Source: an uncultured Alphaproteobacteria bacterium
GTDB lineage: Bacteria > Pseudomonadota > Alphaproteobacteria > Bin95
Direction: 5' to 3'
Length of the DNA stretch: 48,617 nt
NCBI GenBank assembly: GCA_938083135.1
Contig: CALLKY010000003.1
Coordinates: 1 to 48,617, forward strand
Part shown: positions 5,524 through 40,639 of the stretch, in pieces
Layout: the number at the start of each line of letters is the position of its first letter
Position numbering within the stretch: position 1 is the stretch's first letter
The notes under the pieces: model-generated
Database searches by the model: none
Told to the model about the DNA's origin: nothing
Seen by the model: the letters and a program-made list of their open reading frames with translations, nothing else
Position numbers and translations under genes: made by a program

Positions 5524-7317
5524 ATGGCTGTATCTGGAACGAAAGACGCACCAGCGCGCAAGAATGATCCGAACAAGATGGCGGCGCGGGTCGCGTTTGA
5601 TCCGACGGTGCCCAGCGATAAACCGCAGGAATATTACGACACGATCAAGCAAAGGTTCGCCGAGGAGCGTGATGTTCGGCTGAAGCACCGTCCGGAGGGC
5701 CTAAGTCAATATACGTCGGAACTCGAAGGCGATTTGGCTAAGTACGAGGTCGATCCTTACGCCGAGGAACAGACTGAACGTGAGCCGATCACTGATCACG
5801 TGGAGTGCCTGTTTATCGGCGGCGGTTTTTCCGCCTTGTTGACGGCGGCACGCTTGCGCGAACGCGGCGTTGAGAGCATCCGTATTGTCGAGCGTGGCAG
5901 CGATGTGGGCGGAACGTGGTACTGGAACCGGTATCCAGGTGCTGCGTGCGATGTCTCTGCTTATGACTATCTGCCATTGCTCGATGAATTGGGTTACGTG
6001 CCGAACAGCTTCTTTGCGAAGGGGCCAGAAATTTACGCGCACTGCCAAGCGATCGCCAAGAAATATGATCTATATGACCTAGCGGTTTTTCAAACCACGG
6101 TCACCGCGACCCATTGGGATGAGAAAGAGAAGATTTGGCGCCTCGAAACAGATAGAGGCGACAAGCTGACGGCACGCTTTGTCATTGTTGCTAATGGCAC
6201 ACTCGCAAAGCCGAAGCTGTCGCGCATCAAGGGCATGGAGACGTTTGAAGGTCATTCCTTCCACAGCTCCCGCTTTGATTATGATTATTGCGGCGGCGAT
6301 CTCTCCAATCTCAAAGATAAGGTCGTTGGCGTTATCGGCACCGGTGCATCGGCGGTCCAGATCATTCCCCGTGTTGGAAAGGCGGCGAAGGAGCTTTACG
6401 TATTCCAACGCACGCCATCTGCCATCGATATCCGGGACGATATTCCGACAGACCCGGACTGGGCAGCTTCCCTCAAGCCCGGATGGCAGGTTGAACGGCT
6501 CAAGCGCCACGTGCTCAATACAAAGGCAGATCCTGAGAAACGTCGGGAGATTGAGAAACTGCCGCGGGAGGAGCGCATCAAGCGTTACGAGAACCAGAAC
6601 ATTGAACACCAGATGCGGATCCATGCCCGCGTTGATTCAATCGTTGAAGACAAAGCGACCGCTGAAGCGCTGAAGCCCTGGTATATGCATCGCTGTAAGC
6701 GCCCATGCTACGACGACGAATATCTGCCAGCATTCAACCGACCCAATGTCCACCTAGTGGATACCAAAGGGCAGGGCGTCACAGAAATCAACAAGCGTGG
6801 CGTGGTGTTTGAAGGTAAGGAATATCCCGTTGATGTACTGATCTACGCCACCGGGTTCGAGGTGCAGGTCACGGGCATCTATAATGATATTCGCGGCGAG
6901 AATAATCTGGAATTGAACGAGAAATATTCTGAAGGCATGCGAACGGTTTTCGGCGTGCATTCAGCGGGTTACCCGAACATGTTCATCATGGGTGGGTACC
7001 AGGCATCATTCCAGTTCAACGTGACTTTCATGTTGCAGACCCAAGGCTTCCACATTGCGGAGTGCATTAAATACACCCGCGAAAATGGCCACACGACCAT
7101 CGACGCTAAGCCGGAAACGGAACAATGGTGGGTCGATGAAGTCATCAAGTTCCGTGGCACCACGGATCGCAATAAGGAATGCACGCCTGGCTATTATAAC
7201 TTTGAAGGCCAGGAAAACCGGCGGCAGGATGGCAACTACAACGGCGGCATGTACCAATATGCCGAGCACCTCCAAACCGCCAAAGACAAGTTGCCAGAGT
7301 ATTTTAAGTTCGATTGA
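5524..7317 (+). CDS. Flavin-containing monooxygenase, Baeyer-Villiger type (BVMO 1)
   Basis: A 597-residue NADPH/FAD monooxygenase that should insert oxygen next to a ketone, giving an ester or lactone. The first Rossmann motif FIGGGFSALLTAARL is at about residues 97-111, the GTWYWNRYPGAACD block at 130-143, and the BVMO fingerprint FxGxxxHxxxF at 241-251 has F in place of the common W. The NADPH Rossmann motif VIGTGASAVQ is at 270-279. A roughly 95-residue N-terminal extension before the FAD site is longer than in BVMO 2 at 27544-29184 and is seen in the larger cyclic-ketone and steroid enzymes. The 3' end overlaps the convergent luciferase-like gene by 14 nt, so the two transcripts can form antisense pairs. 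Confidence 0.9.
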   Translation: MAVSGTKDAPARKNDPNKMAARVAFDPTVPSDKPQEYYDTIKQRFAEERDVRLKHRPEGLSQYTSELEGDLAKYEVDPYAEEQTEREPITDHVECLFIGGGFSALLTAARLRERGVESIRIVERGSDVGGTWYWNRYPGAACDVSAYDYLPLLDELGYVPNSFFAKGPEIYAHCQAIAKKYDLYDLAVFQTTVTATHWDEKEKIWRLETDRGDKLTARFVIVANGTLAKPKLSRIKGMETFEGHSFHSSRFDYDYCGGDLSNLKDKVVGVIGTGASAVQIIPRVGKAAKELYVFQRTPSAIDIRDDIPTDPDWAASLKPGWQVERLKRHVLNTKADPEKRREIEKLPREERIKRYENQNIEHQMRIHARVDSIVEDKATAEALKPWYMHRCKRPCYDDEYLPAFNRPNVHLVDTKGQGVTEINKRGVVFEGKEYPVDVLIYATGFEVQVTGIYNDIRGENNLELNEKYSEGMRTVFGVHSAGYPNMFIMGGYQASFQFNVTFMLQTQGFHIAECIKYTRENGHTTIDAKPETEQWWVDEVIKFRGTTDRNKECTPGYYNFEGQENRRQDGNYNGGMYQYAEHLQTAKDKLPEYFKFD

Positions 7318-8188
7318 CCGGCTTGATGACAGCCTCGCCATAAGCGGCGAGGCTGTCTTCTAAGCCTTTGCCGAACGCTGATAACGGCAAGGCAATACGA
7401 TCAACGCCAGCCGTTGCGCTGGCAGCGATTGCGGCGTGTGGATCTTTGCCGGAGCCGGGTAAGGCGTCTGGGCAGCCGGTCATAACTTCAATTTCTGCCG
7501 GATTACGCCCAATTGCCCTGGCCTCATCGCGGAGCGCCTGAATGACGCCGGATGGATCGAGACCAGCGCCTGTCGCTGGAAAGAAGCCGTTGCCATAACG
7601 CGCGGCCCGGCGAATTGCCGATTTGGAGTGGCCGCCCACGATGATCGGCACCTGTCCATGTTTGGGTTTTGGGTTACAGCTCATGCCTTTGAAGTTCACG
7701 AATTCCCCTTCATAGCTAGCATCATCACTGGCCCAGAGGGCGCGCATGGCCTCAAGATATTCGTCTGTGCGCCGTCCCCGTCGTTCAAACGGCACACCGA
7801 GCGCATCGAACTCCTCTCGTAGCCAGCCAACGCCAATGCCGAGTTCCAAGCGTCCGCCCGTCAAATGATCAATCGTCGCCAACTGCTTCGCGAGCACCAG
7901 GGGATTGCGCTGGGGCAGCACAAGAACGCCCGTAATCAACCGCAGATTAGACGTGACCGCGCCCACATATGTCAGCCAGCTCAGCGGGTCCGGCCATGGC
8001 ATATCGATGCCGCCGGGCAAGCGACCGGTCTCATTATACGGATAGGGGGTGGAATAATCCGTTGGCACAACGACATGCTCAACGGCGATAACGGATTCAA
8101 ACCCAGCCGCTTCCGCAGCCAGAACAAGTCGCTTGGCATCTTCAGGGTCTGGGAAGGTGATGTTGCCGAAATGCAGGGCGAACTTCAT
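7304..8188 (-). CDS. Luciferase-like (LLM) flavin/F420-type oxidoreductase
   Basis: A 294-residue TIM-barrel oxidoreductase of the bacterial-luciferase superfamily. Recognisable blocks are MKFALHFGNITFP, GFESVIAVEHVVVP, LRLITGVLVLPQRNP, LGIGVGWLREEFDALG and VPIIVGGHSKSAIRRAARYGNGFFP, as in the F420-dependent LLM class subfamilies. Whether the cofactor is F420 or FMN cannot be told, and many alphaproteobacterial members are annotated F420-dependent only by similarity. The start at 8188 is taken because the family begins MKFALHFG; an ATG at 8212 would add eight unrelated residues. It is convergent with BVMO 1. It could act before or after the BVMO in ring degradation. Confidence 0.87.
   Translation of the reverse strand: MKFALHFGNITFPDPEDAKRLVLAAEAAGFESVIAVEHVVVPTDYSTPYPYNETGRLPGGIDMPWPDPLSWLTYVGAVTSNLRLITGVLVLPQRNPLVLAKQLATIDHLTGGRLELGIGVGWLREEFDALGVPFERRGRRTDEYLEAMRALWASDDASYEGEFVNFKGMSCNPKPKHGQVPIIVGGHSKSAIRRAARYGNGFFPATGAGLDPSGVIQALRDEARAIGRNPAEIEVMTGCPDALPGSGKDPHAAIAASATAGVDRIALPLSAFGKGLEDSLAAYGEAVIKPVNRT
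7330..7355 (+). terminator. Terminator-like hairpin just after BVMO 1, inside the convergent gene
   Basis: A perfect 10-bp stem (CAGCCTCGCC / GGCGAGGCTG) with a 6-nt loop lies 12 nt after the BVMO stop and is followed by TCTTCT. It lies wholly within the 3' coding end of the luciferase-like gene, so the same bases serve as codons on one strand and a probable transcript end on the other. Confidence 0.5.
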
Positions 8189-21606: not shown

Positions 21607-22812
21607 TTGACCCCATCTTTTGATCCCCGTTATCGGATCGTATTCGGTGCCTGCGTGACGCAGTTTGCCGTTATTGGGCTGCTATTCGCATATGGCCTGT
21701 TCTTCGAAATATTCGAAAATGAGTTCGGCTGGCCGCGCGCGGTGCTCTCCGGTGCGATGTCGCTTGTGGTGCTGTCGATGGGGTTCCTGGCGGCGTTTAG
21801 TGGGAGGCTAAGCGATCTCTACGGCCCGCGCATCGTATTGAGCGTTTCCGGCATCGTATTCGGCATTGGCGTCGCGTCGATCTCGCAGATCAGTGCGCCA
21901 TGGCATCTCTTCCTGATTTTCACGATGTTTATCGGCGTCGGCATGGCGACCCATGATGTGGTGACATTATCGACCGTCGCGCGTTGGTTTGTGCGGCGGC
22001 GGGGGATGATGACTGGCGTTGTGAAAGTGGCGACAGCAATTGGCCAGATCAGCTTGCCTGCTGTCGTTGCTGCCTTGATCGCAGCGTTTGGCTGGCGCGA
22101 TGCCATCATGGTCACAGGTTTCGCTGCCGCAATTTTGCTGTTTGGCGCTGCCCAACTGGTGCGTCGACCTGAAGAGGGCGAGGCGACGGGGGCAAGTGAA
22201 GAAGCGGCAACCCCAGCGCCAGCCCCGATTGATTACAAGGCCGCGGTGCGAACACGGGTTTTCTGGATGCTATGCGCCGCGCAATTCCTATTTTTCCCGA
22301 TTCTTAGCGCCATCCCATTGCATATGGTGGCACATGGATCAGACCTTGGGCTGTCTGTCACGCAAGCAGCAGGGCTGGTTTCAACCATCGGCGCGGCTAG
22401 CATCGCTGGGCGATTGATTGTCGGTAATTTGATTGACCGTATCGGCGGTCGCGGCGCCTATATGCTTGGCCTGACGCCGCTGGTGCTGAGCCTTCTGGCG
22501 CTGTTGGCGATTGATGTGCCTTGGATGCTGTATGGCGTGATGGCGCTATATGGAATCGGCCATGGCGGCATGTTCACAGTCGTTTCGCCCACAATCGCCG
22601 AGTATTTTGGCGTTCAGTCCCTCGGCGCGCTGTTCGGCACCATCTTATTCTTCGGATCGCTCGGTGGTGCTGCTGGTCCAATCATGACCGGCTTTATCTT
22701 CGATTGGACAGGCAGTTACGCCGTCGCATTCACAATCCTCGCTATCATGGGCGGGCTAGCGCTACTGCTGATTTCCCTGCTGCCAAGGAAACTGCCTAGT
22801 CCACAGAGCTAG
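21607..22812 (+). CDS. MFS transporter
   Basis: A 401-residue major facilitator with about 12 predicted membrane helices. The family loop between helices 2 and 3 is seen as GRLSDLYGPRIVL, and its counterpart in the second half as GRLIVGNLIDRIGGRGAYMLG. The arrangement and the N-terminal FEIFENEFGWPRAVLSGA resemble monocarboxylate/oxalate-type (OFA or MCT-like) carriers. TTG 21607 is the start, with GGAGA upstream. Probably imports an organic acid or exports a product. Its last 17 nt overlap the convergent luciferase-like gene. Confidence 0.9.
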   Translation: MTPSFDPRYRIVFGACVTQFAVIGLLFAYGLFFEIFENEFGWPRAVLSGAMSLVVLSMGFLAAFSGRLSDLYGPRIVLSVSGIVFGIGVASISQISAPWHLFLIFTMFIGVGMATHDVVTLSTVARWFVRRRGMMTGVVKVATAIGQISLPAVVAALIAAFGWRDAIMVTGFAAAILLFGAAQLVRRPEEGEATGASEEAATPAPAPIDYKAAVRTRVFWMLCAAQFLFFPILSAIPLHMVAHGSDLGLSVTQAAGLVSTIGAASIAGRLIVGNLIDRIGGRGAYMLGLTPLVLSLLALLAIDVPWMLYGVMALYGIGHGGMFTVVSPTIAEYFGVQSLGALFGTILFFGSLGGAAGPIMTGFIFDWTGSYAVAFTILAIMGGLALLLISLLPRKLPSPQS

Positions 22813-23839
22813 CGACGTCCATAATCTGCTCTAGCGTCGCGATCCTGTCGGCAGCGCTGGCTTTGTCGTCCAAGCGGACGTTCAGGCAATTGACGCCGAC
22901 ATCGCGGTATTTGCGGAACCGTGCGCGGGCCATGTCGGGTGTGCCGAGCACTTGGAACTCTGTCACCATTGCGTCTGGGACGTTAGCGACAGCGGCATCC
23001 CGCTCGCCTGCTTTCCATAGGCGCTGGATTTCCAGGGCCTCGTCTTTGTACCCGGCCCGCTGGAATGCTTCGTTATAGAAGTTGGTTTTGGCGGAACCCA
23101 TCGCGCCCATCTGGAATGCAACTCCTGCCTTTGCAGTCGCGACCATCCCCTCAACATCCTCACCGATAGACATCGCAACTTGGGTGGATATCTCCATATC
23201 GGCTAGGTTTCTGCCTGCTTTGTCTGCCCCTTTGCGCATGTAATCGAAATGCGCTTCCGCGTGATCTGGCGAGAAGGAGGTTCCGAGCCAGCCATCTGCG
23301 GCCGCACCTGTATATTCAAGCGCGCGCGGGCCGAGTGTCGCCAGATAGATCGGGATGTCAGCGGGATTGACGTCCAACCGAAGCGCTTTGCCCTCGCCAC
23401 CAGGGCGGGGCAGCACGTGGACGTCACCGTCGTATTGCAGCTTCTCACCGGCGAATGCCATGCGACAGATTTCGACTGTTTCGCGCAGTCGTGTGAGCGG
23501 CTTGGCATAGGGCGCACCGTGCAGGCCTTCAACCACTTGCGGCCCGCTCACGCCAAGGCCAAGCCGGAACCGGCCACCAGAAATCTCGTTGAGCGAAAGC
23601 GCGGTCATTGCCGTCATCGCCGGGGCGCGGGCGCTGATCTGCATGATGCCGGTGCCAAGATGAATGCGTTCCGTTTTCGCCGCCAGATAGGCCAGAGTCG
23701 TGATCGCATCTTGCGCCCATGCCTCTGCCGACCAAACGCAATCAACGCCCATGCTATCCGCTGCTTGAACCACTTCAGATGCGGTTTTGATATCCTTGCC
23801 CGCAGCGCCGCCGACATAAATCGAGATTTTCATTGCCAT
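22796..23839 (-). CDS. Luciferase-like (LLM) oxidoreductase, F420-type subfamily
   Basis: A 347-residue luciferase-superfamily oxidoreductase, distinct from the one at 7304-8188. Blocks are MKISIYVGGAAGK, DCVWSAEAWAQDA, LGTGIMQISARAPAMTAMTA, GRFRLGLGVSGPQVVEGLHG and PIYLATLGPRALEYTGAAADGWLG, as in the F420-dependent enzymes of the mycobacterial Rv3520c type. Cofactor use in this organism is uncertain. A GAGGAG ribosome site precedes the ATG at 23839. It is the last gene of the minus-strand run that contains the selenoprotein, 71 nt after the thioredoxin-reductase-like gene, and may be a terminal partner of that system or simply a catabolic enzyme read through from it. Confidence 0.87.
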   Translation of the reverse strand: MAMKISIYVGGAAGKDIKTASEVVQAADSMGVDCVWSAEAWAQDAITTLAYLAAKTERIHLGTGIMQISARAPAMTAMTALSLNEISGGRFRLGLGVSGPQVVEGLHGAPYAKPLTRLRETVEICRMAFAGEKLQYDGDVHVLPRPGGEGKALRLDVNPADIPIYLATLGPRALEYTGAAADGWLGTSFSPDHAEAHFDYMRKGADKAGRNLADMEISTQVAMSIGEDVEGMVATAKAGVAFQMGAMGSAKTNFYNEAFQRAGYKDEALEIQRLWKAGERDAAVANVPDAMVTEFQVLGTPDMARARFRKYRDVGVNCLNVRLDDKASAADRIATLEQIMDVASSVD

Positions 23840-23910: not shown

Positions 23911-24813
23911 TTAACTGGCGATGGCCTGGGCTGCCGCCACAGCGTCTGCAACAGCATCTGCAATAGCGCCACCGTGATCAGCCCGGGCGGCACCGATGGC
24001 ATAGAGACCGGGAAGGGTGGTCTGCATGGTCGCGCCAACAGTTAATGCGCCATCCGCATTTCGTTTGGCTTCTGGCGGCGCTAGCGCTGTTTGTGGGGTC
24101 AGGCCAATAAACGGGAAAACCGCGGCGATTGGATGATCTTTCTCTGAACCGCTGGCTTGATCGTGGAGCCGTATAGCGTCCACGCCTTCGGTGCCAATGA
24201 TTGCGCGAACATCTATGCCAGTTCGAACGTGGACATTACTGTGAGCCCGAATCCGTTCAACGAAGTCTACACGCGCACGCGGCGCTGGCCCCCGGATCGC
24301 GACAGTGACTGAGGCGCAATGTTCCGCCAGGTGCAGCGCTTCCTGAAAAGCAGCATCGCCGCCACCAACTACAAGAACATCTTTGTCACGATACAGTCCA
24401 CCATCACAGAAGGCGCATTGGGATACGCCGCGGCCTGCTAGTTCTGTCTCTCCGGGAACGCCAAGCTGTTTCAACGCGGCACCTGTCGCGAAGATAATGG
24501 CGGGGCCAGCGGCTTCCTGCTCTGGTAGGTGCCAAAGCGCACCATCCTGCTGAAGCGCGGTGACGGCTCCCATCCGATAATCGGCACCAGCGACCAGCGC
24601 CCGTTCTAGCAGTGTGTTCACGAGGTCTGGGCCGCTTTCAGCCTCGCCCTCAACACCCTCCAGCTTGCCGACATTGGTGATTAGCCCGCCGAGGAAGCCA
24701 TCGTCGACCAGGGCCGTCGCGATGCCGCGTTCTGCCAGTTCAGCGGCGGCGGTTAGGCCTGCAACGCCAGCGCCAATGACTATGGCCCCGTGGGTTCCGC
24801 CGTTCGCTGTCAT
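23911..24813 (-). CDS. Thioredoxin-reductase-like FAD/NAD(P)H disulfide reductase
   Basis: A 300-residue flavoprotein with the domain order of low-molecular-weight thioredoxin reductase. The FAD site is VIGAGVAGLTAAAEL (about 12-26), then ATGAALKQLGVPGE (109-122), the redox disulfide CAFC (C133/C136 in SQCAFCDGG), the NADPH site VVGGGDAAFQEAL (148-160) and the C-terminal GLYAIGAARADHGG. Family TrxRs usually have CATC; the altered spacer and a weaker NADPH-binding region suggest a dedicated partner rather than housekeeping TrxR. It starts inside the stop of the upstream gene (ATGA), so it is translationally coupled to the cysteine-rich paralog pair and the selenoprotein, and most simply supplies their electrons. 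Confidence 0.9.
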   Translation of the reverse strand: MTANGGTHGAIVIGAGVAGLTAAAELAERGIATALVDDGFLGGLITNVGKLEGVEGEAESGPDLVNTLLERALVAGADYRMGAVTALQQDGALWHLPEQEAAGPAIIFATGAALKQLGVPGETELAGRGVSQCAFCDGGLYRDKDVLVVGGGDAAFQEALHLAEHCASVTVAIRGPAPRARVDFVERIRAHSNVHVRTGIDVRAIIGTEGVDAIRLHDQASGSEKDHPIAAVFPFIGLTPQTALAPPEAKRNADGALTVGATMQTTLPGLYAIGAARADHGGAIADAVADAVAAAQAIAS

Positions 24814-25847
24814 AGGTCTTGATCCTCAAGTGATTTCAGTGCGCGCGTTTGGATGGCAGACCCGCCGGCCCATAGCGGCAGATAGGTCATTTTCACACCT
24901 GGCCCACCGGTGATAATCGGCAGAATATCTTGTGGGGATGCAGCAATAGGTTTGGCCGCATTGATTGACATAACGCCCGGTATTTCAATGGATGTGGTTT
25001 CAAATATGAATGTCTGCATGTCGCCGATGCTCCAGCCATGCTTGTCTACGCCTGCCGCAAGTTCCGGCGGTAGCAGAAACACCTGTTGGCCGGGTGGGCG
25101 TGCCCGTCCCGCACTAGCGGCGGCACCCGTTGCAATCATGGCTGCGGCCATGGGCGTTAGGATGGCTTCGGGCGTGTCGCGGTCATCCAATGGCAACACT
25201 TCCACCGTGCCGGAGACACCCAGCACTGTGACAGCGCTTGCATCTGTGCCGAGGCCTTGGCGTTCCGCGAGGCCAGGATAGATTGTTGGCAGGGTTTCAG
25301 CACAGCAGAAGCTGTATTTCCCGGGTTGCCCCATCGTCGCCATATCGCCGGAGCCTTCACGTGCGCCGCCAATATTCCGCATGACAAGCGACACAGCCCG
25401 GCCAATCGCAGCGTTCGCGCGGGTGCCAGGACCAAGGCAGTTGGTGCCTGAATTCATGTCTAATTTTGCAGCGACGGGGCCATGTACGATTGTGGCGATG
25501 GCTGGTGTCCCGGTCGTCGTGAGCAATCCTAGGACATTGAATGCTGGGTCTAGGCAGGCTGTCGCTGCCGTCAGGACAACCGGCAATTCTGCCGGTATGC
25601 AGCCTGCAAGCATGCACTGATAGGCCACGGCGCGAGGTGTGAGGTCGCCATAGAGTGGGGGCAGCAGGCCGTGAGATCGATCTGGCTCTGCAACGCCTTC
25701 AAGCATGGCCTGGAGGTGACGATCTGTGGGTGGTGTCAGCGGCAGGCCGTCAGACAATTCCGCGGCTGCCAGCAAGGCCTGGGTTTCGTCAAAACCCATC
25801 GTTTCTGAGACGAGCGGCAAGGCTGCGTCTGCGCCGAACACGCTCAC
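24810..25847 (-). CDS. Unknown cysteine-motif protein, selenoprotein-operon partner B
   Basis: A 345-residue protein, not assigned to a known function. It is a clear paralog of the adjacent 346-residue protein: the two share DG(L/F)PL, (M)AGC(I/K)P, (N/S)GTNC-type (C137), ANA(A/T)IGRA, NIGGA, KY(S/A)FC (C181) and a C-terminal glycine-rich stretch (SP(Q/E)DI...GG.G...Y.P). Matching cysteines are C83, C137 and C181, with an extra C182. There is no signal peptide and no membrane helix, so it should be cytoplasmic. It overlaps both neighbours by 4 nt (ATGA), implying stoichiometric expression, perhaps as a heteromer with its paralog. The cysteines and the adjacent Sec protein and flavin reductase suggest a substrate-binding or catalytic thiol component. 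Confidence 0.8.
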   Translation of the reverse strand: MSVFGADAALPLVSETMGFDETQALLAAAELSDGLPLTPPTDRHLQAMLEGVAEPDRSHGLLPPLYGDLTPRAVAYQCMLAGCIPAELPVVLTAATACLDPAFNVLGLLTTTGTPAIATIVHGPVAAKLDMNSGTNCLGPGTRANAAIGRAVSLVMRNIGGAREGSGDMATMGQPGKYSFCCAETLPTIYPGLAERQGLGTDASAVTVLGVSGTVEVLPLDDRDTPEAILTPMAAAMIATGAAASAGRARPPGQQVFLLPPELAAGVDKHGWSIGDMQTFIFETTSIEIPGVMSINAAKPIAASPQDILPIITGGPGVKMTYLPLWAGGSAIQTRALKSLEDQDL

Positions 25848-26884
25848 CGGTTGGGCAACCGCACCGATGAGGCCTCTGTGAAGCCGAAGGTCGGGATATA
25901 AGCTGAATGCTTGCCAGCACCGCCTGCGACAAGAACCTGAATGTCCTCCGGCGACCGGGAGAGGTAATAGCGGCCGTTCCGAATTTCCTGTTCGCGCTCT
26001 TCGTAGTTCTTTTGGTTCTCGATGGATACGCGCTCCACGGGCACCGCTGAATCTTCGTACAGCTTCTCCTGCACGGCTTCGACCGACCAGCCATCACGGT
26101 GCACGGTCGCGGCGTGTTCCGGACCGAAAACCACGGTATAGGGGGCGGTGCCGTAGATCGTGTTGGCACCCGTCTGGGAGATGGATCCAGCGATGGTCGT
26201 CAGGATGCCTTCACCAGTGGTGCTGCCGTGATCATTGATATTATGTGGCGGCTCGGAGGGCAGGGCGGTGACGACGCTATCTGTCGCTGCAAAGCCCTTG
26301 CGCACATGATAGGGTTCCCACGGGCTTTCCTCTTCGTTCTCACCAAAGCAAAACGCATATTTTGCTGGTGAGCCTTGGGTCGAGCGATCCATTTCACCGG
26401 GCTTCGCGCCGCCAATATTCAGCAGCGTGAGTTGCAGCGCCCGCCCGATGGTCGCATTGGCAGGCCAGCCTTGGCCAAAGCAATTGCTGCCACAGTTGAC
26501 GCCAAGTTCCTTGCGGATCGGCCCGCTCAAGATGAGCATCGGCGCGCAAGGATGCGTCGTCGCCAGGGTTCCATGAAGATTATAGTCAGGGTTAAGAACG
26601 GCGCGTACTGCCGCTACAATTGTTGGAAAAAACTCTGGCTTACACCCAGCCATTACTGCATTGGCGGCGATGGATTCAAAGGTTGGCACAACCCGGCGTG
26701 GCGACATGGGCAAGAACGGCTCGTTGTCGCCATGTGCGGTTTCCATGAAGGCCGCGACTTTCGCTTCCGTTGGCATTACCAGCGGAAACCCATCACCCCA
26801 GCCCTGCGCCATGGCGTAATCGTTCCAAGCGTCCGGGTCGAGATTTTCCAGCTCAAGGACTTGGTCAGTCGTGATATCCGCCAT
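25844..26884 (-). CDS. Unknown cysteine-motif protein, selenoprotein-operon partner A
   Basis: A 346-residue protein of unrecognised function, paralogous to partner B at 24810-25847. Cysteines visible are C81 (MAGCKPE), C113, C131 and C135 (NCGSNCFG) and C179 (YAFCFGENEEE). C81, C135 and C179 align with the paralog's C83, C137 and C181, whereas C113 and C131 are private. This copy has a longer acidic insert after the FC motif. It starts 77 nt after the selenoprotein stop; the gap carries a 10-bp inverted repeat. A weak AAGAG ribosome site precedes the ATG. The two copies have probably diverged by duplication into different roles of one complex. Confidence 0.8.
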   Translation of the reverse strand: MADITTDQVLELENLDPDAWNDYAMAQGWGDGFPLVMPTEAKVAAFMETAHGDNEPFLPMSPRRVVPTFESIAANAVMAGCKPEFFPTIVAAVRAVLNPDYNLHGTLATTHPCAPMLILSGPIRKELGVNCGSNCFGQGWPANATIGRALQLTLLNIGGAKPGEMDRSTQGSPAKYAFCFGENEEESPWEPYHVRKGFAATDSVVTALPSEPPHNINDHGSTTGEGILTTIAGSISQTGANTIYGTAPYTVVFGPEHAATVHRDGWSVEAVQEKLYEDSAVPVERVSIENQKNYEEREQEIRNGRYYLSRSPEDIQVLVAGGAGKHSAYIPTFGFTEASSVRLPNR

Positions 26885-26904
26885 CGCTCTTTTCTCACAT
26901 AAGT

Positions 26905-26934
26905 GCGCCCGGCGGCTGCAAGAGCGCCGGGCGC
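26905..26934 (-). other. 10-bp inverted repeat between the selenoprotein gene and partner A
   Basis: Perfect arms GCGCCCGGCG and CGCCGGGCGC enclose a 10-nt loop. In the mRNA this would be a very stable hairpin 26 nt after the selenoprotein stop and 20 nt before the partner A start. The minus-strand sequence after it (ACTTATG) is not a U-run, so a partial terminator, an RNA-processing stop or a translation modulator is likelier than a full terminator. Confidence 0.6.
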
Positions 26935-26960
26935 GTTATTATCGCCGGTGTGACAGCACT

Positions 26961-27482
26961 TTAGGCGTCCACAGAGCGCTTGAGTTCACTGAATGCTGTC
27001 TTGATCCGTTCGGCAAGTTCAGCCTCGTTCAGTCCGCCTACGGGGTGTTTGACGATCAGCAATTTGGGGTCAGCATTCCGGGCCTTAGCCTGCGCACGGA
27101 CAAGCGGCAGGAAGGTTTCGGTGATGACGATATAGGTCTCTACGCCGCGATCCTCTAAGTCGATACTGTCATGGAAACTCCACGACGAGCACGACCCTCA
27201 ATCCGCTAAAGCGACGATGGCCCCTTTATAATTCGCTGCGACTTGGTCAATCAGTGCTGCCGGGGCCGGCTGCGCTGCACTATCCTTGAACAGGTAGTCG
27301 ATATTATCGGTGGACCGGAAGTCGCCCATCATCGAGCGCACGCCTTGCAAGAGTTCCTGCGCGTTGGGCTTTAAGTTTGAGATAATGGCGATCGGGTCTT
27401 TGGACCAATCTGTCGGGGTTAGATTGTCCCCGTGCTTTTCGGCCTCCTGGGCCAGCCCGAAGGACGGATTAACGATCCGCAT
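26961..27482 (-). CDS. UGSC-family selenoprotein with in-frame TGA read as selenocysteine
   Basis: Read with TGA (27198-27200) as selenocysteine, this gene encodes 173 residues with Sec95 in ALADUGSCSSWSFHD. The frame upstream (94 residues from ATG 27482, AAGGAG six nt before it) and downstream (78 residues to TAA 26961-26963) is open and protein-like on both sides. The second half alternates strand-helix-strand: GAIVALAD, then U-G-S-C and a helix, VETYIVIT, a helix, LLIVKHPVGG. The U-x-x-C pair is a redox motif like CxxC. The name UGSC follows a family known to contain Sec or Cys forms. A SECIS-like hairpin starts 11 nt after the TGA. The gene lies 61 nt after BVMO 2 and heads the partner A/B/TrxR-like genes. 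A stop-at-TGA annotation would give a truncated 94-residue protein lacking the active site. Function unknown; thiol-dependent reduction is the best inference. Confidence 0.88.
27168..27186 (-). promoter_or_regulatory. Bacterial SECIS-like hairpin for selenocysteine insertion
   Basis: On the minus strand the TGA is followed by 11 nt and then by a 7-bp stem (GUCGUGG / CCAUGAC, one G-U pair) closing a 5-nt loop AGUUU. Bacterial SECIS elements are short stem-loops inside the coding region with a small apical loop carrying a G near its start, roughly 16-37 nt from the UGA; here the loop begins 18 nt after it with G as its second base. It should bind SelB. The fold is drawn by eye, not computed. 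Confidence 0.75.
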
Positions 27483-27543: not shown

Positions 27544-29184
27544 CTAGTCTAAGTTCAACTCCTTATATCCGCTGGCAGCCACGGCTTCACATTTCTCGCG
27601 ATATTCCGGCGCCGTGCCGCTATAGCGGACGATGGTGCGGGTCTGCTTGCCTTCAACATTCAGGTTGATGCCTGTCATCCAGGAATCGATTTCGTTCGAA
27701 AGCAGGCCTTCCGCCTTCTCTGAGACAAAGCTGTGCCATTCCGCGACGGCTTCCGCTGGCGCCTCCGCTTGGCGAACGCCATTGTCGCAAGCGTGGCCAA
27801 TCAAGCGGCTGATCCAGTCCACATTGTATTCAATGCTGCGCGGATTATTGCCGAGCGCCGCGTGCGGTCCCATGATCATGAACATATTTGGGAAATCATC
27901 GACCATCACGCCAACGAACGTGCGCGGCCCACCAGCCCATTTCTCTTTCAGCCGTGCGCCGCCCTTGCCTTGAATGTCGATCTTGTCGAATGCGCCCGTG
28001 ACAGCATCAAAACCTGTCGCGTAGATGATGACGTCAAATTCGTAATCCTGGGCGGACGTGCGGATCCCAGTTTCAGTAATGCGTTCAACAGGTTCTTCCA
28101 ACATGCTGACAAGCTTGACGTTATCCTGGTTATAAACCTCGTAGTACTTGGTCTCCTGGGGCACGCGGCGCGTGCCGAAGCCGTGGTCTTTTGGGATCAG
28201 CATGTCTGCTGTTTTCGGGTCTTTAACACGCTCACGGATTTTGTCTGCGACGAAATCTGACATAAGGCGGTTGGCCTCACGATCCACGAGCATGTCGCGG
28301 AAATTGCCTTGCCAGATGCCGAAGCCCTGACCGGCATAAAGGCTTTCCCAGAAGGCGTTGCGTTCTTCTTCCGTCACCTCAAATGTGCCGCGCAAATCAA
28401 CGGTGTGTATGAAGCATGCGGCAGTCTCCAGGCAGCGCTGGAAAATCTCAGGGTAGCGGCTGCGAATGTCCTCCATCTCGTCCTTCGGTATGGGACGATT
28501 ATGGAGCGGCGTGCACCAGTTGGGGCGGCGCTGGAACACAGTTAGGTGCTTGGCCGTCTTGGAAATCTCCTGGATCGCCTGAACGCCGCTGGCGCCAGTG
28601 CCAACCACAGCAACGCGCTTGCCTGCGTAGTCTATGCCTTCTTTTGGCCAAAGCCCGGTATGGGTCCACGGGCCTTTAAAGTCTTCGATGCCTTCAAACT
28701 TTGGCATTGTCGGTGTGGAGAGCAGGCCGATTGCGCTGACGATGAAACGCGCGCGGTAGGTCGTGCCATCGGCCAAAGTGACCGCCCAGCAGCAGGCTTC
28801 TTCGTCATAGTGGGCAGCATCGACGCGGGCGGAAAATTGGATGTCTTTGCGGAGGTCAAACTTGTCGGCGACCAGATTGCAGTAGCGTTCGATCTCTGGC
28901 TGGCCAGAGAAAGACTCACTCCAATCCCATTCATCCAGCAGCTCTTTCGAGAAGGAATAGCCGTAGGAGTAGCTTTCGGAATCAAAGCGCGCGCCAGGAT
29001 ATCGGTTCCAATACCACGTGCCGCCAACGCCTGTTCCAGTCTCCAACACCCGCACGTTGAGGCCAAGTTCGCGTAATCGGTACAGCTGGTACATGCCCGA
29101 AATGCCAGCACCGATTACGATGGCGTCAAAGTCGAGTGCGTCAGCGTTGGGTGTGCTGTTTTCAGCCAAAGCGGTCTGGTTCAT
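27544..29184 (-). CDS. Flavin-containing monooxygenase, Baeyer-Villiger type (BVMO 2)
   Basis: A 546-residue type I Baeyer-Villiger monooxygenase. FAD site VIGAGISGMYQLYRL (about 22-36), GTWYWNRYPGARFDSESY block, exact BVMO fingerprint FKGPWTHTGLWP, and NADPH site VVGTGASGVQAIQEI. It should convert a ketone to an ester or lactone with NADPH and O2 in the cytoplasm. The start at 29184 (MNQTALAENS) is preferred; the frame opens at 29232 and an intermediate ATG exists at 29214, with no ribosome site clearly better. It is shorter at the N-terminus than BVMO 1 and belongs to the cyclohexanone/cyclopentadecanone-monooxygenase-like group. An alpha/beta hydrolase lies upstream on the same strand and the selenoprotein 61 nt downstream. 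Confidence 0.92.
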   Translation of the reverse strand: MNQTALAENSTPNADALDFDAIVIGAGISGMYQLYRLRELGLNVRVLETGTGVGGTWYWNRYPGARFDSESYSYGYSFSKELLDEWDWSESFSGQPEIERYCNLVADKFDLRKDIQFSARVDAAHYDEEACCWAVTLADGTTYRARFIVSAIGLLSTPTMPKFEGIEDFKGPWTHTGLWPKEGIDYAGKRVAVVGTGASGVQAIQEISKTAKHLTVFQRRPNWCTPLHNRPIPKDEMEDIRSRYPEIFQRCLETAACFIHTVDLRGTFEVTEEERNAFWESLYAGQGFGIWQGNFRDMLVDREANRLMSDFVADKIRERVKDPKTADMLIPKDHGFGTRRVPQETKYYEVYNQDNVKLVSMLEEPVERITETGIRTSAQDYEFDVIIYATGFDAVTGAFDKIDIQGKGGARLKEKWAGGPRTFVGVMVDDFPNMFMIMGPHAALGNNPRSIEYNVDWISRLIGHACDNGVRQAEAPAEAVAEWHSFVSEKAEGLLSNEIDSWMTGINLNVEGKQTRTIVRYSGTAPEYREKCEAVAASGYKELNLD

Positions 29185-29277
29185 GGTCCTACAATGCTCT
29201 CCACGGGGCCGCATTGATGCGTGCGGTGTCAATTGCGGCTACGATAACGCCCAATCCGTTCATCGCCAACGCTAGTT

Positions 29278-30093
29278 CTATTCTGTGAGGCGCGATTGTA
29301 GCGCGTTGGCACAGGCCGCCGCATCCGTCAGGAAAACCCGGTGCTTGGCTTGTGGAAAGTCCAGCTGAGTGCAGTTCGCTGCCCGCTTAGCCAAAATTGG
29401 GTGCTGGGTAGCATCTACGAACGGTGATCTGCCCGCGACGATGTTCAAAATCGGCATGGTCAGGCGATGTAAATCTGGCCCAAGATCAGCCGCGCGCAAA
29501 CTCAGCACGACCGCGGCAACGGCTTCCGGCATGGCGTCAACATGCAATGCACTTGCCCATGCGATAAGCGCCGGGTCGATTAGTGCTGGATCGAAGCTGC
29601 CTTCGGTCAACATATCGCCCCAGGCTTCAATGCCGCCGGGCTTCGCCAGCACCTCCGGCCATCCACCAATATTGTTGACCAGATCGCCGCGCCAGCCCGT
29701 TGATGCCACTGTGATAGACGCGATCCGTTCCGGGGCATGAATGCCGAGATACAAGCCTGCCGTGCCACCGAAGCTTTCACCGACAAAATGGCAGCGGTCG
29801 ATCTCCAACACGTTCAGCACGTCAAGCACATCGTCTGCATAATCGCTGACTTCAAGGCTTGGCTGAGACCACATCGCTTTGGAGGCTCCGTGGCCGCGCA
29901 TATCTATCGCGATCATTTGGCGATCAGGAGCAAGCCTGCTGATCCAAGGCAGCCACGCCAGCCCATTCAGGCCAAGACCGTGCTGGAACACGATAGGCGT
30001 TGCGGCAACTGCGCCCTCATGCTTGGTCCAGGGATCGCGCATATCGAATACGCGGTATCCTAGGCCCTTAGGACTGGTGTGGATGTGTTGCAT
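29278..30093 (-). CDS. Alpha/beta-fold hydrolase
   Basis: A 271-residue alpha/beta hydrolase. The oxyanion segment is HGLGLNG, the nucleophile elbow is GESFGG, and the C-terminal histidine is in AKHRVF, with an acidic residue in SPFVD as the likely third member. It resembles the esterase/lactonase/C-C hydrolase group that often follows a BVMO, where it would cleave the ester or lactone product. The ATG lies one nt after the GST stop (30095) and 93 nt precede BVMO 2 downstream, so the three are likely one transcript. Confidence 0.87.
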   Translation of the reverse strand: MQHIHTSPKGLGYRVFDMRDPWTKHEGAVAATPIVFQHGLGLNGLAWLPWISRLAPDRQMIAIDMRGHGASKAMWSQPSLEVSDYADDVLDVLNVLEIDRCHFVGESFGGTAGLYLGIHAPERIASITVASTGWRGDLVNNIGGWPEVLAKPGGIEAWGDMLTEGSFDPALIDPALIAWASALHVDAMPEAVAAVVLSLRAADLGPDLHRLTMPILNIVAGRSPFVDATQHPILAKRAANCTQLDFPQAKHRVFLTDAAACANALQSRLTE

Positions 30094-30094
30094 C

Positions 30095-30727
30095 TCAGGC
30101 TTTCAGCCGCTCTGCGGTCGCTGTATCTGCTTTTAGTGTGCGCGCAAATGATGGCAGGGCCGTCATGCGATCAAAGAAGGACTGCACGTTGGCGGGGAGG
30201 GTTTCCGTCACGTTTTTCTTATAGCCACGCATGACATAAGCCATGCTCAGGTCTGCGGCGCACATCTCGTCACCAAGCAGGTAGGGCTGGCGACTGAACA
30301 CAGCGTCCAGCGCTTCAACACAAGCTGTGCCGCGCCCCTGCATTTCGGCCACGACATCATCTAATTGCGGTTGGAAGGCGCGGCGGTGATTTGTGATTTC
30401 GCCAAGTGGGCGGGCGAATGTGGATTCTGCGAACCAGCACCATTGCAGGTAATGGGCATAGCGTGCGTCCGACTTGGCGGGCTGTAGGCGACCTTCGCCA
30501 TATTGGTCCAGCACGTACTGCATCATGGCGCAGGATTCATACATCGTCATGTCGCCATCAGTCATCACCGGGACTTTGCCCACGGGGTTCAACGCCCGCC
30601 ATTCTGGACTTGCGCGGTAATCAGCAGAGAAATCAACCGGATTGATTTCATAAGGAACGCCAAGCTCCTCACACACCCAGATGACACGAAAGCCGCGGGT
30701 TCCGGTGGAGTGATAGATATTCAACAT
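30095..30727 (-). CDS. Glutathione S-transferase family protein
   Basis: A 210-residue cytosolic GST-fold protein. The N-terminal thioredoxin-like domain opens MLNIYHSTGTRGFRVIWVCEELGVPYE with the cis-proline in NPVGKVPVM and the glutathione gamma-glutamyl contact YESCAM. The C-terminal helical domain includes GDEMCAADLSMAYVM. S7/T8 or R11 are candidate catalytic residues. I chose ATG 30727; the longer frame to 30922 adds 65 unrelated residues. It is the first gene of the minus-strand run with hydrolase, BVMO and selenoprotein, and could add or remove glutathione on an electrophilic intermediate. Confidence 0.88.
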   Translation of the reverse strand: MLNIYHSTGTRGFRVIWVCEELGVPYEINPVDFSADYRASPEWRALNPVGKVPVMTDGDMTMYESCAMMQYVLDQYGEGRLQPAKSDARYAHYLQWCWFAESTFARPLGEITNHRRAFQPQLDDVVAEMQGRGTACVEALDAVFSRQPYLLGDEMCAADLSMAYVMRGYKKNVTETLPANVQSFFDRMTALPSFARTLKADTATAERLKA

Positions 30728-30940
30728 GGTGGGGCAGTCCTGACTTTCGGTCGGTGAAAAGTGGGTTGATTTGAGGCTAGTCGTGAACATTCCTGCGTTC
30801 AATCCCATAGCGGATCGTGTGATCTGGAAATAGCGGTTTGGGCAGTTTCGTAAACGTGCGCTTAGGCTGAGTCGGTTTAGATAGAGAAATGAGTTTTGTT
30901 GAACTGAGAGCCCTATGTTCATGAGCGGCAGTGAGTTCCG

Positions 30941-38941: not shown

Positions 38942-40639
38942 TCAAAACAGGAAGTACCGCTGCGCCAAGCTGACGACTTCTGCGGGCTCACAGGTGAGCA
39001 ATGCGCCATTGGCTTTGACCTCGTAAGTCTCCGGGTTCACATCGATATCAGGCGTCAGCGTATTCAATTTCATCGAGGCTTTTGAGATATCGCGCACGCC
39101 CTTTATCGCGACCAACGCCTTATCCACCTCGAGCCCAGCATTCAGCCCGGCCTCACTCACGAAGGAAACGCTGGTCGCTGTTCTGGCTTTGCCGTAAGCG
39201 CCGAACATGGGCCGGTAATATTCTGGCTGTGGTGTTGGAATGGAGGCGTTCGGATCACCCATGACGGCAGCCGCGATCATGCCACCTTTCACCACCAGAT
39301 CAGGCTTCACGCCAAAGAAGGCAGGTGACCAAACAACCAGGTCCGCAAGCTTGCCCACTTCAACCGAGCCAATATGCTCGGACATGCCATGGGTAATGGC
39401 CGGGTTGATGGTATATTTGGCGATGTAGCGGCGGGCGCGGAGATTGTCATTGTCGCCGGTCTCACCATCCATTCGCCCAAACTGGCGCTTCATTTTATCT
39501 GCCGTCTGCCAAGTGCGGATCAGCACTTCGCCGACCCGGCCCATGGCCTGACTGTCGGACGCGATAATTGAGAACGCGCCCATATCATGCAGAATATCTT
39601 CCGCTGCAATGGTTTCCTTGCGGATACGGCTTTCGGCAAAGGCCACGTCTTCCGGAATGCGCGGGTCTAAGTGATGGCAGACCATGAGCATGTCCAAATG
39701 CTCATCAACTGTGTTGACCGTATAGGGCCGCGTTGGGTTGGTGGAGGACGGGATCACGTTATCCAACCCGCAGACCTTGATGATATCTGGCGCATGGCCA
39801 CCGCCCGCGCCTTCTGTATGAAACGCGTGGATGACGCGGCCTTTAAGGGCGGCGACAGTATCCTCAACAAAGCCGCTCTCGTTCAGCGTATCGGTATGAA
39901 TCATCGCCTGGATGTCCATTTCATCCGCAACATTGAGGCAGTTATCTATCGACGCTGGCGTTGTGCCCCAGTCCTCATGGAGTTTGAGCGCGCATGCGCC
40001 CGCGTTGATCTGGTCGATCAACGGCTCCGGTTCTGAGGTATTGCCTTTGCCGCTGAAGCCCAAATTCACAGGAAAAGCGTCTGACGCTTCGATCATGCGC
40101 GAGATATGCCATTCACCGGGCGTGCATGTGGTGGCATTGGTGCCCGTCGCCGGGCCGGTGCCGCCGCCGAGCATGGTGGTGACGCCAGAATAGAGCGCCT
40201 CGTCAATTTGCTGTGGGCAAATGAAGTGAATGTGACAGTCGAACCCGCCAGCTGTGATGATTTTGCCTTCGCCAGCAATGGCCTCGGTCGAGGGACCGAT
40301 GATGATATCGACGCCGTCCTGAACATCGGGATTGCCCGCTTTGCCGATGGCGACGATCCGACCGTCCTTGATGCCGATGTCCGCTTTTACGATGCCCCAA
40401 TAGTCCAAAATGACAGCGTTTGTGATGACGGTATCAACCGCACCATCGCGGCGACGGACCTGGGATTGGCCCATGCCGTCGCGAATGACCTTACCGCCGC
40501 CGAACTTCACTTCATCGCCGTAGGTCGTGAAGTCTTTCTCAACCTCAATGAAGAGTTCCGTATCAGCCAAACGGACTTTGTCGCCGACAGTCGGGCCGAA
40601 CATATCGGCATAGGCATTGCGTGAGATTTTTACTGGCAT
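38942..40639 (-). CDS. ureC: Urease alpha (catalytic) subunit UreC
   Basis: A 565-residue catalytic subunit that hydrolyses urea to ammonia and carbamate at a dinickel centre. Nickel ligands are H136 and H138 (CHIHF), carbamylated K219 (CALKLHED), H248 (MIHTD), H274 (HAFHTEG) and D362 (ASDSQAMG); the mobile flap carries C321, H322 and H323 (MVCHHLD). All key residues are present at family spacing. ATG 40639 ([16 protein letters not shown]) is the start; the upstream reading to 40915 overlaps ureB in another frame. It lies 4 nt after ureB. Confidence 0.98.

Follow-up and report, generated by a model that had tools for sequence, protein, structure and literature searches.

UGSC-family selenoproteins and an obligate partner family form a candidate catabolic selenoenzyme

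We analyzed a window of 48,617 nucleotides (nt) from an uncultured Alphaproteobacteria bacterium (contig CALLKY010000003.1 of assembly GCA_938083135.1, positions 1 to 48,617, forward strand), which carries a gene for a selenoprotein of the UGSC family, two paralogous genes for proteins that we call partners A and B, and a gene for a reductase resembling thioredoxin reductase (TrxR). We found that the pairing of UGSC with the partner family is obligate, that the two are often fused into one polypeptide, and that they are predicted to form one compact unit. Few selenoprotein families are as common in aquatic metagenomes as UGSC. Within the accessible text of the open-access literature on UGSC and selenoproteins, it has had no function since it was named, and no account links it to an obligate partner, to a reductase or to receptors. 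We put at about even the chance that UGSC and its partner constitute an undescribed class of selenium-dependent enzyme, acting on diverse small organic compounds, found widely among free-living bacteria from several phyla and in places amplified to a degree unmatched by other selenoproteins, as in a groundwater Chloroflexota metagenome-assembled genome (MAG) with more than 100 copies, many with their own uptake receptor.

Results

UGSC and the partner family occur together and are often fused

Across 398 genomes of the phylum, 5 carry UGSC; these, and no others, also match the partner profile, so that neither occurs alone; for independent draws, kinship ignored, the chance of such a match is 1 in 8.1e10. 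All 11 partner matches listed in this survey adjoin a UGSC match, and 10 of 11 UGSC genes adjoin a partner, two pieces in one genome (G277) being counted as one. The lone UGSC gene lies on contig C146, about 1.2 kb from the contig end. Among GTDB contigs, 588 stretches matched the partner pattern and 570 were confirmed. We used the best 80 of these 570, and the sample therefore leans towards close relatives. UGSC is present in 76 of the 80 loci, always on the same strand as the partner, upstream of it in 66 cases and downstream in 10, and within 400 nt in 73. For each of the other four loci, UGSC is encoded elsewhere in the genome.

UGSC and partner are also joined in one reading frame in 31 natural cases, 28 of which have the selenocysteine (Sec) TGA as their only TGA; 26 of the 31 fusions were aligned. 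An AlphaFold2 model of one fusion (L037) has two domains in a single confident arrangement (predicted local distance difference test score, pLDDT, 93.5; predicted template modeling score, pTM, 0.93). The fixed pairing, the fusions and the compact model support a mechanism whereby UGSC and partner are two parts of one enzyme. The preliminary description of the window had proposed that the UGSC gene and its neighbors belong to one system; UGSC and partner were not found widely apart, and the shared genomes, the 76 loci and the 31 fusions all bear out their link.

A 2008 analysis of ocean metagenomes (Global Ocean Sampling, GOS; PMC2398784) contains, in its accessible part, a UGSC fusion whose second domain, left unnamed as Unknown_1, probably corresponds to the partner family described here. 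Separately, MAGs titled Bordetella parapertussis (L058, L074, L090, L101) carry UGSC-partner fusions or pairs; for environmental MAGs this species label looks doubtful.

The UGSC gene encodes selenocysteine

By computation, the UGSC gene encodes Sec. Its product belongs to Pfam family PF24696 (UGSC; 112.6 bits, cut-off 25) and scores 106.1 bits against NCBIfam NF041046, short of the equivalog cut-off of 125. We aligned 72 of 85 representative UGSC stretches with the window protein and found Sec or Cys at residue 95, together with Cys98, in 73 of 73 members. Residue 101 is Trp in 55 of them and Cys in 11, and the window's motif reads UGSCSSW. At the Sec column, the codon in the 72 representative homologues is TGA in 68, TGC in 3 and TGT in 1, while each of the six UGSC genes in the window's genome (that of the window and five further ones) has one in-frame TGA. 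The same genome contains SelB (451.8 bits) and tRNA-Sec (67 bits, gathering score 47). A Sphingomonas genome with a Cys form of UGSC (L053, G503) has no SelB match over the cut-off. In a Blastococcus locus (L034, 9735-9737), TAG stands at the UGSC Sec codon, in agreement with the TAG-coded UGSC known in Geodermatophilaceae from the accessible part of PMC5330540.

The sequence that follows the window's TGA folds with a z of -4.6, and 0 of 200 shuffles were equally good. For 69 TGA-bearing sequences, the median z of the corresponding stretch is -1.9 against codon-order shuffles, with 32 of 69 below -2. When the 69 stretches were folded jointly by a codon-column alifold, no significant common structure emerged (21 of 100 column shuffles were equally good), probably because insertions and deletions were disallowed. 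Together, the in-frame TGA, SelB, tRNA-Sec, the homologues with TGA or Cys codons and the hairpin support well the selenium dependence that had been proposed for this locus.

The partner resembles a substrate-binding or catalytic subunit

Partners A and B are 33% identical over 325 columns, and neither matched any Pfam or NCBIfam model. We aligned 69 of 76 representative partner stretches with the two window proteins; Pfam scans of these 71 members returned scattered weak matches only. In a midpoint-rooted tree, A and B each form a monophyletic clade (14 tips with support 1.0 and 11 tips with support 0.999, respectively), and the two clades are not sisters.

The partners had been described as cysteine-rich electron carriers sharing three cysteines. 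All three are present in both window proteins (positions 81, 135 and 179 of A), but only two are conserved across the 71 members: C81 in 70, C179 in 61, and Cys at position 135 in 28. Invariant residues are D31, G32, P34, P38, A79, G80, G121, G147, R148, E182 and G321, and the conserved polar set comprises D31, N75, N143, R148, D166, K175 and E182. Because only two cysteines are kept but many polar residues are invariant or almost invariant, the partner looks like a substrate-binding or catalytic subunit, and electron carrier is not the best description of it.

The AlphaFold2 model of partner A has a mean pLDDT of 94.8, and a Foldseek search of the PDB with it returned nothing at E <= 0.001. 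Likewise, the partner and UGSC sequence profiles found no credible relative among PDB chains. For the partner, the top-ranking rows (class I fumarase and the Toblerone-fold amide hydrolases) had query template modeling scores (TM-scores) below 0.25, and VIA-align matches reached Z up to 6.5 over parts only. A [4Fe-4S] enzyme, suggested by fumarase and cysteine desulfidase rows, was set aside because only two partner cysteines are conserved.

The Sec domain matches a GrdB-like profile

In the fusion model, the UGSC part is built of five beta-alpha units, and Sec follows the third strand; the structural matches of this part (Z up to 11.6) are to receiver-, flavodoxin- and Rossmann-type chains. 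The predicted fold would not be an obvious thioredoxin, unlike the 2008 proposal, in the accessible part of PMC2398784, that UGSC likely has a thioredoxin fold and a redox role.

We compared UGSC with GrdB/PrdB, the Sec proteins of glycine and proline reductase. The window's Sec protein has no match to PF07355 (GrdB/PrdB) at E <= 0.01 nor at E <= 1. By hhalign, a profile of 12 GrdB/PrdB-like proteins matched a profile of 73 UGSC proteins with Sec aligned on Sec (E 6.4e-6, probability 84.9), the GrdB/PrdB side being represented only by proteins with weak PF07355 matches. With only four GrdB-like proteins the match persists (E 2.9e-5), and the controls are weak (E 0.08 for UGSC against reductase profiles and E 0.35 for the partner against the GrdB-like profile). 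Since Sec falls on Sec and the controls are weak, UGSC and GrdB/PrdB plausibly have a Sec domain in common, and UGSC may work like the glycine/proline-reductase protein. The likeness to these reductases drawn in the preliminary description thus stands for the Sec region; it fails for PF07355, for the UxxCxxC motif and for the partner, which is unrelated to the GrdB-like profile.

Profiles for GrdA (PF04723) and for GrdE/PrdA-type proteins (PF09338) found no match in the window's genome, and control genomes were equally silent. Four other proteins of this genome have a weak PF07355 (GRDB) match, and at least three of them are read as Sec proteins. These four GrdB/PrdB-like proteins lie on contigs C69, C33, C97 and C106 (L139-L142), three with a UPxC motif, in mixed surroundings; one is beside hydantoinase-like genes.

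A TrxR-like reductase accompanies the A+B subtype

The window reductase is a low-molecular-weight TrxR-like protein (Pyr_redox_2, 96.3 bits) with FAD/NAD(P) domains and a redox CxxC, which is kept in 11 of 11 other TrxR-like matches. It scores 205.5 bits against TIGR01292, short of the equivalog cut-off of 343.45. The canonical TrxB of the genome is on contig C18 (414.7 bits against the same model), and the window reductase is a second, divergent one.

We examined 12 related loci of the A+B clade, one of them from Blastococcus. Partner A is present in 12 of 12 and B follows in 10; of the remaining two, one ends within A (L036) and one is without B (L029). In 9 of the 12 loci, with the window additional, UGSC has a TrxR-like gene as its same-strand neighbor. 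In those nine the TrxR-like gene lies on the 5' side of UGSC, and in the window at the 3' end. Because gene order differs, the association between UGSC and the TrxR-like gene has survived rearrangement. Outside the A+B clade, the loci scanned have TrxR-like matches only in L045 and L124, distant and on the opposite strand. The TrxR-like gene is therefore specific to the A+B subtype: the dedicated reductase of the preliminary description does travel with UGSC and A+B in the window's clade, and it is not part of the core system.

Four partners from other loci (L009 in the window's genome, L124, L103 and L126) have an N-terminal thioredoxin-like CxxC domain, with a VPT-type cis-Pro motif in three of the four. 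Its best PDB matches are thioredoxins, all weak (E 0.011 and up). For the L009 partner (6528-7994, with CPTC), Pfam did not recognize the domain, and the thioredoxin-like call is based on the motif, the cis-Pro-like VPT and the weak PDB matches.

UGSC-partner pairs are amplified and lie near solute receptors

In the Chloroflexota MAG JACPQD (G500, L084; 5.0 Mb), UGSC and the partner each have at least 150 matches. We took 388 kb where matches cluster (e.g. L167-L186). This sample holds 74 UGSC genes. TGA is present in 73 of them, 72 have a partner no more than 600 nt away, and 55 share one frame with the partner. The MAG contains SelB (353 bits). Nearest UGSC paralogues in the sample have a median identity of 69% and are at most 78% identical, and the copies are therefore not strain duplicates. 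A groundwater MAG study by Deng et al. in 2026 may overlap with this amplification. The UGSC count exceeds the largest bacterial selenoproteomes given in the accessible part of a 2026 review (57, and 63 in a MAG; PMC13188914).

Of the 166 other genes in the JACPQD stretches, 69 form a single family whose representative is a family-5 solute-binding protein. Such a gene lies within 2.5 kb of 46 of the 57 UGSC genes that are more than 3 kb from the ends. Elsewhere, the receptors are of an unrelated kind. We scanned 223 of 248 selected neighbor genes, leaving out antisense overlaps and out-of-range ends by hand, and found TctC receptors of tripartite tricarboxylate transporters in 35 of the 223 (10 of 108 and 25 of 115). 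By distance, TctC accounts for 40 of the 254 genes lying no more than 1.5 kb from a pair versus 42 of 612 farther away (one-sided P = 7e-5, for genes that are not independent). Catabolic neighbors of the coenzyme A (CoA) type occur, namely CoA transferase and PrpD-like genes. In another locus of the window's genome (L007, contig C4), two UGSC-partner pairs lie near genes that, named by eye, are phosphonate C-P lyase-type, PhyH-like, TauD-like and acyl-CoA ligase-like.

Gene set of the window

The minus strand carries the four genes in the order first described, namely the Sec protein, A, B and the TrxR-like reductase (Table 1), and both the UxxC pair of the Sec protein and the CAFC pair of the reductase are present. 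UGSC and A are spaced by 76 nt. The 4-nt overlaps exist at both junctions (A/B and B/TrxR), but ATGA, first given for both, is found only at B/TrxR; the A/B overlap reads GTGA because B starts with GTG. We could not name a substrate from the window's own neighbors, as none of the monooxygenase, hydrolase, glutathione S-transferase-like and luciferase-like genes is kept in the 12 clade loci. Elsewhere in the window, an Rfam 5_ureB_sRNA match (123 bits, 40200-40484, plus strand) lies opposite a urease alpha-like gene.

Table 1. Features of the UGSC gene run and its neighbors (positions in the window)
Feature	Position	Strand	Description
UGSC-family selenoprotein	26961..27482	-	173 aa; Sec at residue 95 (UGSC), resolving Cys98
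Sec codon TGA	27198..27200	-	sole in-frame TGA of the Sec protein gene
SECIS-like (selenocysteine insertion sequence) hairpin	27157..27197	-	directly 3' of the TGA; -21.7 kcal/mol, z -4.6
Partner A	25844..26884	-	346 aa; without Pfam or NCBIfam model
Partner B	24810..25847	-	345 aa; GTG start; ancient paralogue of A
TrxR-like FAD/NAD(P) disulfide reductase	23911..24813	-	300 aa; CAFC
Baeyer-Villiger-type flavin monooxygenase	27544..29232	-	same gene run, 61 nt upstream of UGSC
Alpha/beta hydrolase	29278..30093	-	neighbor gene
Glutathione S-transferase-like	30095..30922	-	neighbor gene
Luciferase-like (LLM) oxidoreductase	22796..23839	-	71 nt downstream of the TrxR-like gene

Discussion

We favor, with an evenly balanced degree of belief, an explanation in which UGSC and its partner form a substrate-specific catabolic selenoenzyme, probably reductive, that is re-reduced by a thioredoxin-type donor. 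The diverged, amplified copies and the private receptors of two unrelated kinds point to substrate-specific catabolism rather than housekeeping, while the Sec domain and the attached thiol reductants point to a reductive step with thioredoxin-type electrons. We infer the catalytic roles, the direction of electrons, the class of substrate and the bond attacked as follows. UGSC would be a doubly wound alpha/beta domain with Sec95 at a helix start and Cys98 as resolving thiol. The partner, here A and B together, would be the substrate-holding part, with its near-universal Cys81 and conserved polar residues. A small organic substrate, often imported by its own extracytoplasmic receptor, would bind to the partner, and the selenolate would attack an electrophilic carbon or bond of the substrate. 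Cys98, and perhaps Cys81 or Cys179 of the partner, would then resolve the product as an Se-S or S-S species. Finally, a thioredoxin-type donor would re-reduce the enzyme, through the dedicated TrxR-like protein in the A+B clade and through the fused CxxC domain in the four other partners. Overall, a bond in a catabolic substrate would be cleaved in a selenium-dependent and probably reductive way.

Several observations weigh against this explanation. Linked reductase or thioredoxin partner genes are absent from most loci, so that at those loci either the general thioredoxin of the cell would serve as reductant or the reaction may be no reduction. UGSC and the GrdB-like profile align over about 70 columns with 15% identity, UGSC has no counterpart of the second C in GrdB's UxxCxxC, and the two may have converged in their use of a common alpha/beta fold. 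Betaproteobacteria, which dominate our sample, commonly carry TctC genes. Because the window's operon neighbors are not kept in relatives, they name no substrate.

The main rival is that Sec acts as a nucleophile, or as an acid-base group, with no net reduction taking place, as in a lyase, transferase or isomerase, and that the TrxR-like protein only repairs oxidized Sec. The scarcity of linked reductases, the many conserved polar residues of the partner and the CoA transferase and PrpD-like neighbors all fit such chemistry. Against it stand the strictness of the UxxC pair (73 of 73), the two kinds of thiol reductant that were attached independently (TrxR-like genes and thioredoxin-like domains) and the likeness to GrdB/PrdB, which are reductases according to the accessible part of PMC13188914. 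We consider this rival unlikely, though seriously to be reckoned with.

It is more doubtful that UGSC belongs to a general thiol-redox or detoxification system that reduces peroxides or protein disulfides, as has been suggested in the selenoproteome literature. The UxxC motif and the linked TrxR-like reductase agree with this suggestion, as does the likely thioredoxin fold and redox role stated in the accessible part of PMC2398784. However, the predicted UGSC domain resembles flavodoxin, receiver and Rossmann chains and is not an obvious thioredoxin, and at least 150 diverged copies in one MAG, often with a solute-binding protein, fit a diversification of substrates. Least probable, and in our judgment improbable, is that only UGSC and a partner form a system to which the A+B pair and the TrxR-like gene of the window are loosely associated passengers: UGSC and a single partner suffice in most loci, TrxR is absent from 3 of the 12 clade loci and L029 has no B beside A, but the old A and B clades have been kept together across Alphaproteobacteria and a Blastococcus genome, and TrxR adjoins UGSC in nine clade loci in an order that differs from the window's.

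If a substrate-specific catabolic selenoenzyme is the correct explanation, selenium chemistry would help to degrade organic matter in soil, in groundwater and at sea, far outside the circle of the known anaerobic Stickland fermenters. The copies in the groundwater Chloroflexota MAG would then number over twice the biggest bacterial selenoproteome given in the accessible part of PMC13188914. The partner, the clade-specific reductase, the thioredoxin-like domains and the receptors make UGSC a testable enzyme.

Among known systems, the UGSC-motif family (PF24696; NF041046; GOS 2008) is the same Sec protein family as the window's, and in the accessible part of PMC2398784 it stands without a function, partner gene, reductase, receptor link or amplification. 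Bacterial TrxR (TIGR01292) has the FAD/NAD(P) domains and redox CxxC of the window reductase, which scores far lower than the family's model requires. GrdB/PrdB, like UGSC, carry Sec in a UxxC at a helix start, followed by a similar downstream sequence pattern, and draw on a thioredoxin-type electron supply (PMC13188914, accessible part), as we propose for UGSC; they differ in having UxxCxxC and PF07355, and the GrdB-like profile is unrelated to the UGSC partner. The fluoroacetate reductase FarB/FarE of Synergistota, which is GrdB/GrdE-like, suggests that carbon-halogen cleavage is within the reach of a recruited GrdB-type selenoprotein (PMC10838667, accessible part). It differs in that its subunits are homologues of GrdB and GrdE, with UGSC and the partner unmentioned in that part of the paper.

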